From: an uncultured Sphingomonas sp.
Lineage (GTDB): Bacteria; Pseudomonadota; Alphaproteobacteria; Sphingomonadales; Sphingomonadaceae
Assembly: GCF_902806265.1 (NCBI RefSeq)
Contig: NZ_CADCVZ010000054.1
Coordinates: 1 to 64,000 of the forward strand
Reading direction: 5' to 3'
DNA: 64,000 nt
Position numbers and translations under genes: made by a program. The notes under the pieces are model-generated. The model worked only from the letters and a program-made list of their open reading frames with translations. It did no database searches and was not told where the DNA came from. Below, in pieces: positions 29,565 to 41,672 of the stretch. Each line of letters starts with the position of its first letter. Within the stretch, counting starts at the first letter, position 1.

Positions 29565-29656
29565 CGTCATCCCCAACTTGTTTCAGGATGCCTGCATCCA
29601 CCCGAGCGGCAGCTCTCTGCAGGAGGATGGATGCTGAAACGAGTTCAGCATGACGG
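29565..29656. repeat. REPIN-like two-armed repeat, solo copy
   Basis: Imperfect inverted repeat of about 92 bp between ruvC and ruvA. The left arm (29565-29594) reads CGTCATCCCCAACTTG onward. The right arm (29625-29656) ends GTTCAGCATGACGG. The right arm is 31/32 identical to the repeat at 41641-41672. The arms are separated by about 30 bp of unrelated sequence, the same layout as the unit at 41229-41318. It carries no gene. It may act as an mRNA stem between ruvC and ruvA. Confidence 0.8.
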
Positions 29657-32723: not shown

Positions 32724-32775
32724 GCCGTCATCCTGGCGGAGGTGGGATCCTAGGGGTCGCGCGAGCCGCCCGGGA

Positions 32776-32793
32776 CCCCGGCCTACGCCGGGG
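32776..32793. terminator. Bidirectional hairpin / REP-like palindrome
   Basis: Perfect stem CCCCGGC-CTAC-GCCGGGG followed by GTGACG. It lies between the convergent pyk and nnrD genes and contains the nnrD stop codon in its loop. The upstream 32753-32779 stretch can pair alternatively (GGGGTC with GACCCC). The sequence resembles a GC-rich palindromic repeat family common in sphingomonad and caulobacter intergenic regions; only one copy was noticed in this window. Confidence 0.6.
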
Positions 32794-33664
32794 TGACGCT
32801 CTCCAGCAATCCCGGCACCTCGCCCGGAATCTCTCGGGCCAGATAGCCCAGGGTCCCGACCTTCTCGCCCAGGCGCCGCCCGGCCTCGCCATGGCACCAC
32901 ACGCCCCACAGCAGCGCGGTGAGCGGGTCGGCGCGGCGGGAGAGGAGGCCGCCAACGATCCCGGCCAGCGTGTCGCCGCTGCCGGAGACGCCGAGTCCGG
33001 GACCGCCGCCCTTGTACAGGAACGCGGTCCCGTCCGGCGCAACGATGTGGCTGTTGACGCCCTTGACCAGGGTGACCGCATCATAGCGCTCGGCGCAAGT
33101 GCAGCCGGCGGCGAGCGGGTCGGCCTCCACCTCTTCCTCGTCGCACTCCAGCAGGGAAGCGAGTTCGCCGGCGTGGGGCAGGAGGATGGCGGGGCAGGCG
33201 GAGCGCTGCACTTCCTCCCGTCGCTGCGGCAGGGCGCGGAGCAGGGCGGCGTCGAGCGCCAGGGGGTTCCCGTTGCCGACCAGCGCGGCGGCGAGCTTGG
33301 CCGTGTGCCCGTTGCCCTGCATCCCTGGGCCCGCGACTACCGCGTCAGCCATGGCGGCGCGTTCAGCCAGCGGCTTGACGGTGGATGGGGCGAAACCGCC
33401 GTCGCGGCCTTGGGCGAGGCCGACCACCATCGCTTCGGGCATGGCCATGGCCAGGTGCGGGGCGACGCTGTCCACCGTCGCGATCTGCAGCCGGCCGGCG
33501 CCGGCGCGCATGGCCGCCATCGCGGTCAGCAAGGCCGCGCCGCCAACGTCGCGACTGCCCGCGATGATCAGGATGGAGCCGCGCGCGTTCTTGTCGCCCG
33601 CGCCGATCGGTGGAAGCGGATACTTCTTCAACAATGCCGGCGTGAGCTCGGCGGGCGCGCTCAT
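32783..33664 (-). CDS. nnrD: ADP/ATP-dependent NAD(P)H-hydrate dehydratase
   Basis: 293 residues, YjeF C-terminal (ribokinase-like) domain only: GSILIIAGSRDVGGAALL, PHAGELASLL and the catalytic-site motif GLGVSGSGDTLAG. Repairs damaged NAD(P)HX. The epimerase domain NnrE, often fused, is absent here and must be separate. The last codons (SVTPA and the stop) are written in the palindromic repeat at 32776-32793. The start overlaps the stop of the histidine phosphatase gene (ATGA), so the two are coupled. Confidence 0.92.
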   Translation of the reverse strand: MSAPAELTPALLKKYPLPPIGAGDKNARGSILIIAGSRDVGGAALLTAMAAMRAGAGRLQIATVDSVAPHLAMAMPEAMVVGLAQGRDGGFAPSTVKPLAERAAMADAVVAGPGMQGNGHTAKLAAALVGNGNPLALDAALLRALPQRREEVQRSACPAILLPHAGELASLLECDEEEVEADPLAAGCTCAERYDAVTLVKGVNSHIVAPDGTAFLYKGGGPGLGVSGSGDTLAGIVGGLLSRRADPLTALLWGVWCHGEAGRRLGEKVGTLGYLAREIPGEVPGLLESVTPA

Positions 33665-41228: not shown

Positions 41229-41318
41229 CCGTCATGCTGAACTTGCTTCAGCATCCATCCTTTGGCTCGTACAGGTGGCCTTGTGAAAGGATGGACGCTG
41301 GAACGCGTTCAGCTGACC
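41229..41318. repeat. REPIN-like two-armed unit, left part of element
   Basis: Left arm 41229-41260 and inverted inner arm 41289-41318, with about 28 bp of spacer. The inner arm differs from the consensus at about five positions plus a one-base deletion, and contains the GIY-YIG stop codon at 41309-41311. Size and arrangement match the ruvA-ruvC copy. Confidence 0.75.
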
Positions 41319-41620
41319 AATGGAGCAGACGGCAGCCCTAAGCCAGGCGCCAGGTCCACCCAGTGCGGGTTCTCACTTTCGATCAGGTTGATCTTCCATT
41401 GCCGGTGCCAGCGCTTCAGCTGTTTCTCGCGCGCAATCGCATCGTGCATGGTGTCGAACAGCTCGAAACGGGTCAAGCGCACGACGCCGTACTTAGAGGT
41501 GAAGCCTTTCACCTCCCCAGCCCTGTGCTGGTAGGTCCGAGCGATGAGATCGGACGTGACACCGATATAAAGGGTACCGTAGGGCTGGCTGGCAAGGACG
41601 TAGACGCACGGCTGCTTCAT
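41309..41620 (-). CDS. GIY-YIG nuclease family protein
   Basis: 103 residues. GIY-YIG motif split as CVYVLA and LYIG (Tyr18-Ile19-Gly20), the family Arg28 in LIARTYQH, and the acidic residue Glu65 in AIAREKQLKRWHRQWK. This is the small stand-alone COG2827/UhbQ-like form, presumed to nick or cut DNA. Transcribed against the propionate operon. Flanked by inverted repeats that share sequence with a solo repeat elsewhere in the window, so the nuclease may act on these repeats. No good ribosome-binding site is visible, which would keep expression low. Confidence 0.85.
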   Translation of the reverse strand: MKQPCVYVLASQPYGTLYIGVTSDLIARTYQHRAGEVKGFTSKYGVVRLTRFELFDTMHDAIAREKQLKRWHRQWKINLIESENPHWVDLAPGLGLPSAPLVS

Positions 41621-41640
41621 GGGCCCAAGTGCATGCGGAG

Positions 41641-41672
41641 GGATGGATGCTGAAACAAGTTCAGCATGACGG
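41641..41672. repeat. Right inverted repeat of GIY-YIG element
   Basis: 32-bp copy ending GTTCAGCATGACGG. It is inverted relative to 41229-41260 (31/32 identical) and in the same orientation as 29625-29656 (31/32 identical). It ends 4-6 bases before the mce start, occupying the place of the ribosome-binding site. Confidence 0.8.

Follow-up and report, generated by a model that had tools for sequence, protein, structure and literature searches.

Results

A GIY-YIG gene between inverted CGTC hairpins

The window, by which we mean the whole 64,000-nucleotide stretch of uncultured Sphingomonas DNA that was analysed, contains a short element with a pccB-like gene on one side and an epimerase-like gene on the other. 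Its parts, together with two gene-less units found elsewhere in the window, are as follows.

41230..41671, minus strand: complete REP-GIY-YIG-REP element; 442 bp, outer tags included (CGTC at one end, GACG at the other)
41309..41620, minus strand: GIY-YIG nuclease gene, 103 aa, PF01541 E=4.4e-14
41644..41671, minus strand: upstream CGTC-tagged REP arm, CGTC-ATGCTGAA-CTTGT-TTCAGCAT-CCA
about 41292..41318, minus strand: inner degenerate REP arm (GGTCAGCTGAACGCG...)
41230..41257, plus strand: downstream outer CGTC-tagged REP arm
29565..29655, no strand assigned: two-armed REP unit without a gene, same class as in the element, with unlike arms
32726..32798, no strand assigned: gene-less CGTC pair of another (third) class, with unlike arms; ACCCCGGC-GTAG-GCCGGGGT arm at 32772-32798

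The first-pass annotation of this DNA had described a GIY-YIG gene as the only protein-coding part of a unit bounded by inverted repeats, with two arms at the left end, one at the right and a gene-less unit elsewhere in the window, and each part of this description was borne out. The single gene has GIY-YIG as its sole Pfam hit, with no second domain; the 32-bp arms (41229-41260 against the reverse complement of 41641-41672) are identical at 31 of 32 positions; the left end consists of the outer arm and the degenerate inner arm, the latter extending over the gene's final 10 bases and with them its stop codon; the single arm at the right end lies 23 bp from the start codon; and the gene-less unit is that at 29565-29655. 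When up to 3 mismatches are allowed, a 24-mer of the arm matches the window at 3 places, compared with none in 100 dinucleotide shuffles.

The genome from which the window comes (2.33 Mb in 64 contigs) holds 8 matches to the A-type REP pattern and one further GIY-YIG gene of the clade, which is 53% identical (L002 in genome G000, contig C21:14335-14622) and lies between REPs of another CGTC class (inverted repeat CGTCATTCCCGCGAAAGCGGGAACCCA). A gene-less A-type pair lies about 6 kb from this paralogue on the same contig. The pair at 32726-32798 has no class-matched gene among the two GIY-YIG genes of its own genome.

The repeats fit the definition of CGTC-tagged REPs given by Di Nocera et al., 2013 (PMC3733652). 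In the available text of that survey, these have a CGTC tag (often TGTC or CCTC), a stem of 8-9 bp that almost always begins with AT, a loop of 4-5 nt and a CCA tail; they form mostly head-to-head dimers, occur mainly in alpha-Proteobacteria and in five phyla altogether, and include Neisseria dRS3 and Rickettsia RPE-4/RPE-6. According to the survey they seem to have no transposase of their own, and what moves them was left open in 2013; the main text of the survey contains no mention of GIY. Both repeats of our genome show the tag, stem, loop and CCA tail, and they likewise exist in many copies, mainly as head-to-head dimers, one of the 199 genomes having as many as 260 against the 8 noted above. 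A reversed-pattern control gave 0 matches in the tabulated genome rows and 1 with a shorter pattern at 3 mismatches. By these sequence features, the window arms are classed as members of the CGTC-tagged REP superfamily.

The protein is predicted to be a conserved GIY-YIG nuclease

No NCBIfam entry matched the 103-aa protein, PADLOC returned only PDC-S14 (E=0.0085 over 36 residues), and there was a weak match (E=0.07) to phrog_5123, annotated as 'homing endonuclease with GIY-YIG motif'. AF2 gave a model with a mean pLDDT of 95.2 from a 24-row alignment, the single-sequence model (44.9) being unusable. The nearest solved folds identified by Foldseek, at a best E-value of 1e-3, are two UPF0213 proteins (1zg2 and 1ywl), the UvrC N-domain and Slx1, with query TM-scores of 0.41-0.46 for Slx1 and 0.52-0.53 for the other three. 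On the strength of the model, we confidently predict a GIY-YIG fold. Residues Y7, Y18, G20, R28, H32, E65 and N84 are invariant in the 24-row alignment and are of the kind expected in a GIY-YIG active site, so that both the fold and the predicted catalytic residues are those of the superfamily. With synonymous sites near saturation, the median dN/dS is 0.25 for copies beside ruvB, where 129 of 153 pairs are unsaturated, and 0.17 in an mcc-like context, where 13 of 15 are, values which indicate that the protein is under purifying selection.

The arrangement recurs in the family and beyond it

A homologue is present in 140 of 199 family genomes, with up to 12 matches per genome. Our family set comprises 111 loci from the top of the homologue list (six places in range were left out), and REPs were located by a script that searches up to 200 bp from the gene for CGTC hairpins. 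This detector was written after the first arms had been seen; a control that relies on inverted repeats spanning the gene is independent of it. The idea put forward in the first-pass annotation depends on arms not being absent around other GIY-YIG homologues, and they are not: the REP > gene < REP arrangement has both arms at 80 of the 111 family loci, one arm at 20 and none at 11, and at loci from named genomes (the best 80 of 575 relatives) the corresponding numbers are 40, 24 and 16. Family loci have 5.43 REPs per kb up to 200 bp from the gene and 0.14 per kb beyond 400 bp, a 38-fold enrichment, and within the nearest 100 bp the repeats have a preferred orientation (85 plus and 27 minus upstream; 73 minus and 28 plus downstream). 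In the detector-free control, exact inverted repeats of at least 12 span the gene at 78/111 family loci, compared with 5/109 and 3/111 at shifted positions.

A sample drawn across the phylum gave both arms at 18 of 30 loci, one at 8 and none at 4. Together with the 80 named loci these make up a broad set of 110, in which 8 loci duplicate family loci (7 of the 30, and L188 of the 80) and L222 duplicates L174. Spanning inverted repeats were found at 77/110 loci of this set, against 1/103, 2/97 and 1/72 at shifted positions. A canonical arm is missing in 11/111 family loci and 20/110 broad loci. Named hosts with both arms include Rhodanobacter, Pseudoxanthomonas, Endozoicomonas, Methylocucumis, Neisseria, Propionivibrio, Sideroxydans and a Desulfobacterales genome; many of the records are metagenome bins, and single exotic taxa may therefore be misbinned. 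Among 11 loci from a plasmid collection, the detector scored both arms at 6 (including L349, whose upstream hairpin is doubtful), one arm at 1 and none at 4 (including L339, where a matching pair is visible by eye). Distant YhbQ-like GIY-YIG genes, found as weak hits, have arms at 0 of 30 loci, but this control is a weak one that cannot separate enzyme type from genome, since the genomes concerned mostly contain few or no CGTC-1 REPs.

Some further loci are worth recording. A cyanobacterial member on a Planktothrix agardhii plasmid (L342, 2501-2785) lies between the gene for an MmeI-type enzyme and DISARM drmA, with GTCATTCTGAG-type repeats nearby, and the pairing may thus extend to Cyanobacteria with other repeat forms. 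In Sinorhizobium and Rhizobium (L340, L345 and L349), CCTCATCCCTGTGCTCGTCACAGGGATCCA-type repeats sit close to GIY-YIG genes; a 2.8-kb query gave 764 matches spread over 134 records, and many of these are probably the CCTCATCCCTGTGCTCGTCACAGGGATCCA-type repeat. Finally, copies within one genome that are 87-91% identical and carry in-frame stops (L303 and L304 in G252; L306 and L307 in G364) indicate that decayed GIY-YIG elements accumulate too.

REP numbers follow the gene for one repeat type

The number of A-type REPs is associated with the A-like gene, which we defined by a cut-off of E<=3e-32 that was set after the hits had been seen. At least 3 copies are present in 54/59 genomes with an A-like gene, in 21/81 with other GIY-YIG genes only and in 10/59 with none. 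Comparison of A-like with other GIY-YIG genomes gave P=2e-15 for the A REP and P=0.08 for the B REP, and at least 3 copies of the A and B REPs summed occur in 111/140 genomes with the gene against 17/59 without it (Fisher P=4e-11), all of these P values ignoring shared ancestry and counting the gene's own flanking arms. The earlier expectation that arm copy number should track the gene was therefore upheld for A-type REPs with the A-like gene but not for B-type REPs, whose numbers across the 199 genomes do not follow that gene. In the phylum sample of 398 genomes, the CGTC-1 pattern reaches at least 3 copies in 53/111 genomes with a strong hit (E<=1e-12), 12/120 with weak hits only and 18/167 with none; outside the family these values are 40/95, 12/120 and 18/164. 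The arms are thus not equally abundant in genomes without the gene, although exceptions exist: nine family genomes with at least 10 REPs and 15 genomes in the phylum sample are REP-rich without a detected gene, and a further 15 carry the gene but neither the A nor the B pattern. We considered a diverged gene hidden in REP-rich, hit-less genomes and rejected it, as a profile search found none in the nine (0/9).

These exceptions bear on the chief rival to a REP-spreading role for the nuclease, namely homing of the gene into existing REP pairs. The REPs would then spread by other means, and a GIY-YIG parasite would cut gene-less pairs and be copied into the loop by way of the arms. GIY-YIG is a classic homing endonuclease fold, which agrees with the weak phrog_5123 match; the gene does sit in the loop of a head-to-head pair, and the existence of REP-rich genomes that lack it also counts in favour of homing. 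That A-type REP number follows the A-like gene while B-type number does not speaks against homing, as do the sites without the element that are described below, and we judge this reading unlikely.

Enzyme type and repeat type are matched

Arm sequence follows enzyme type, even between the paralogues of one genome. The upstream and downstream arms of an element differ by a mean edit distance of 1.90, compared with 7.78 when permuted (80 loci), and protein distance between genomes correlates with REP distance at r=0.473, the best of 2000 permutations reaching 0.122 (100 loci with at least one arm). The strongest test confines the swapping of REPs to paralogues of the same genome, since this removes genome-wide composition, and across 21 genomes with 44 loci not one of 5000 such swaps equalled the fit of the real pairing. 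The protein tree has 182 rows, 169 of which have a REP class seen at least 3 times and among which two duplicate locus pairs add no class changes; on it the REP class changes 31 times. Shuffled labels require a mean of 89.7 changes (minimum 76) and within-genome shuffles a mean of 44.6 (minimum 35), with 0 of 2000 as low as 31 (17 genomes, 36 loci). There are counter-examples in L049 and L044, where B-like arms flank proteins whose neighbours bear other arms.

This pairing also bears on a passive explanation, in which REPs gather between genes or act as terminators and merely happen to lie beside the nuclease gene. REPs are indeed found mostly between genes, as the available text of the 2013 survey reports (PMC3733652). 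The 38-fold enrichment with its preferred orientation, the detector-free control and the cognate pairing inside genomes are all at odds with such a coincidence; on these grounds we ruled out terminators or chance and regard the passive reading as scarcely credible.

Many copies are inherited in place

Among the 80 elements with two arms, lengths are 363-624 bp, most often 403 bp. Half of them (40/80) lie in contexts seen once and the other 40 in five shared contexts of 18, 10, 6, 4 and 2 loci, the largest of which adjoins ruvB (named by eye from its translation) and has elements of 403 bp at 15 of its 18 loci. The share of elements in shared contexts implies that many copies are old and inherited in place. 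Many RAYT copies are likewise said to be inherited in place.

Such retention would also suit a domesticated host nuclease with a cellular role, for example in processing hairpins or branched DNA or in policing REPs, in which case the REPs would regulate or mark the gene and its mobility would lie in the past. The constant length at ruvB, the purifying selection on the protein and the presence of structure-specific Slx1 and of UvrC among the nearest folds all fit this possibility. Set against it are the patchy presence and multiple matches per genome, the elements in once-seen contexts, presence or absence between relatives and the link between REP copy number and the gene. We rate domestication as quite improbable, though a domesticated role could hold alongside a REP-spreading one, as has been said of RAYTs.

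The element behaves as a unit with defined edges in several comparisons. End-to-end matches that stop no more than 2 bp from the REP edges were found for L021/L036 (84.5%) and L104/L110 (77.5%), in both cases with no flank similarity by the script's criterion, and L028/L294, both from one genome, match end to end over 406 bp at 77.8%, again with no flank similarity by that criterion.

Some related sites lack gene and REPs together

The first-pass annotation had suggested looking for empty sites, and the search yielded three Azospirillum and two Shinella relatives in which the gene and REPs are both missing. In Azospirillum lipoferum 4B a REP pair, the gene and a second REP pair stand between sufB and sufC, while in the same gap of A. 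ramasamyi, A. oryzae and strain B510 (flanks 92-97% identical) the gene is missing and no REP was detected. This comparison left out eight other Azospirillum records that fall similarly short, and target duplication could not be called in it, the junctions being blurred by divergence. Two Shinella records (flanks 81-83% identical) lack the gene and REPs present in Shinella WSC3-e. A Sinorhizobium record without the stretch beside hflX was not counted as an empty site, as REP-like repeats are present there. A search around the Novosphingobium pNL2 copy matched only that copy, and around the K1/93 copy each of the eight Rhizobium records with 80% cover contains the gene.

At ruvB, 25 genomes picked for missing the gene were searched and 24 matched; none of the 24 has a GIY-YIG hit at the locus, and in 23 of them the detector found no REP in the 650 bp before ruvB, although one (L321) has a REP-like palindrome visible by eye that was passed over through the detector's loop limit. 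Having been picked without the gene, these genomes show only that the REPs are mostly absent along with it. The one exception is G018 (L337), where the intergenic stretch that bears the element in other genomes has a REP pair without a gene, about 154 bp before ruvB; this pair would be a precursor or else a relic left when the gene was lost, and it counts in favour of homing. The Azospirillum, Shinella and ruvB sites, where REPs are absent as well as the gene (the L321 palindrome aside), speak against homing, together with the A-type copy numbers.

For the pccB-epimerase site we read 1.5 kb at 29 same-genus loci and that of the window, with pccB within reach in 24 of the 30. Four relatives have pccB and epimerase nearly adjacent (gaps of 6, -7, 6 and 21 nt) and no element; the remaining gaps are longer and unrelated, so that no exact junction can be read from them. 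One relative (L248) has the same element at this site, with both arms and a protein that is 76% identical, and the window copy is therefore not a fresh insertion. Two others (L251 and L263) have GIY-YIG genes of the clade, but of other types, near the epimerase, with no canonical arms nearby, and the remaining loci have no GIY-YIG hit within 1.5 kb. It is conceivable from L251 and L263 that the site was hit more than once. Movement was not seen directly, and neither a target-site duplication nor an exact junction was established among the sites compared.

Discussion

Our best explanation, which we consider likely, is that the element encodes a REP-associated GIY-YIG nuclease that recognises its own REP class and cuts near the CGTC edge, after which the host copies the unit or the pairs. 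One short gene would be placed between head-to-head CGTC-tagged hairpins; its product would recognise hairpins of its own class and nick or cut them on or close to the outer edge that bears the CGTC tag. Copies of the unit, or of gene-less REP pairs in trans, would then be made at new intergenic sites by the repair or replication of the host. We infer that the protein binds and cuts, where it cuts, and that copying follows; the observations that make this the best explanation are the unit and its edges, the match between enzyme and REP, the A-type copy number, the joint presence or absence of gene and repeats at some sites, and the purifying selection. The nuclease, then, probably promotes the spread of the REPs of its own class, much as RAYTs serve GTAG REPs, but through unrelated chemistry. 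Hydrolysis of DNA by GIY-YIG enzymes involves no covalent intermediate, and they are not known to perform strand transfer; joining would therefore fall to the host, and this is the weakest part of the explanation.

Since the matched pairing recurs in many bacteria, we put the GIY-YIG nuclease forward as a candidate for the enzyme that a large class of bacterial repeats has been lacking. We lean, if only slightly, towards the broader proposal that its clade is the long-missing enzyme of the CGTC REP superfamily, a hydrolytic nuclease behind a class of mobile elements of its own, acting by hairpin recognition and host repair on units of about 400 bp and co-diversifying with the repeats across Proteobacteria and perhaps other phyla. 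If this is true, elements of about 400 bp would be among the smallest self-encoded mobile units, and two unrelated nuclease chemistries would have reached the same REP lifestyle. What moves the CGTC REPs, including Neisseria dRS3 and some Rickettsia palindromes, becomes directly testable with a small enzyme and its matched hairpin, and there are dozens of natural enzyme-hairpin pairs from which to work out hairpin recognition. If the pairing alone holds, without movement, this would still be a variant, itself new, on the theme of REP plus enzyme.

Mobile elements are classed by their enzyme, and we know of no bacterial class driven by a GIY-YIG enzyme alone, nor did the literature we searched contain one. 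The first-pass annotation had likewise named no system of this type, and our search, whose coverage was incomplete, showed no earlier report. No paper among the matches listed, which included few subscription papers and no preprints, links GIY-YIG with REPs in its title or abstract; in the accessible text of one paper both terms occur, in unrelated places, and neither GIY-YIG nor CGTC appears in that of a 2024 review of bacterial MITEs or of a 2021 paper on TnpA_REP. An earlier report of the link may exist.

Among known systems, the closest in protein are the short GIY-YIG proteins of UPF0213 type (1zg2 and 1ywl), which presumably correspond to YhbQ. They share the domain and the size and are the best profile and structural matches, but weak-hit loci of this type had REP arms at none of the 30 examined, in mostly REP-poor genomes, and the A1 profile gives the REP-linked clade much higher scores. 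The closest in repeats are the CGTC-tagged REPs, whose tag, stem, loop, tail and dimers are as in the arms described here; no dedicated enzyme is reported for them in the available text of Di Nocera et al., 2013, whereas here a GIY-YIG gene is tied to them. Homing endonucleases of the I-TevI type have the same catalytic fold, and a selfish-gene logic is possible for both; here, however, no intron or intein is seen, the 103 aa have no second Pfam domain, and the ends are hairpin repeats with gene-less copies. The gene does lie in the loop of a REP pair, as one interrupting its own target would, but where it is missing the REPs are mostly missing too. Pairs of MITE and IS are similar in their terminal inverted repeats and gene-less derivatives. 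They differ in that the ends here are themselves palindromes, with no DDE or HUH transposase and no target duplication shown; with no transposase domain and no junctions defined at the sites compared, we do not class the element as an insertion sequence.

The fullest parallel is with REPtrons, in which a GTAG REP or REPIN is combined with a RAYT (TnpA_REP). In both cases a single gene is flanked by REP hairpins, gene-less head-to-head pairs lie elsewhere, each enzyme has a cognate REP class and many copies are inherited in place. The likeness to REPIN/RAYT logic drawn in the first-pass annotation accordingly holds in architecture, in cognate pairing and in the association with copy number. The REPtron enzyme is an HUH tyrosine transposase and its repeats carry a GTAG tag; here there is no HUH or catalytic tyrosine transposase, the gene has about 100 codons and is predicted to encode a hydrolytic GIY-YIG nuclease, and the flanking tag is CGTC. 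By analogy, we would therefore describe the system as REPtron-like in its working, yet built without the two features, HUH enzyme and GTAG tag, that define a REPtron.
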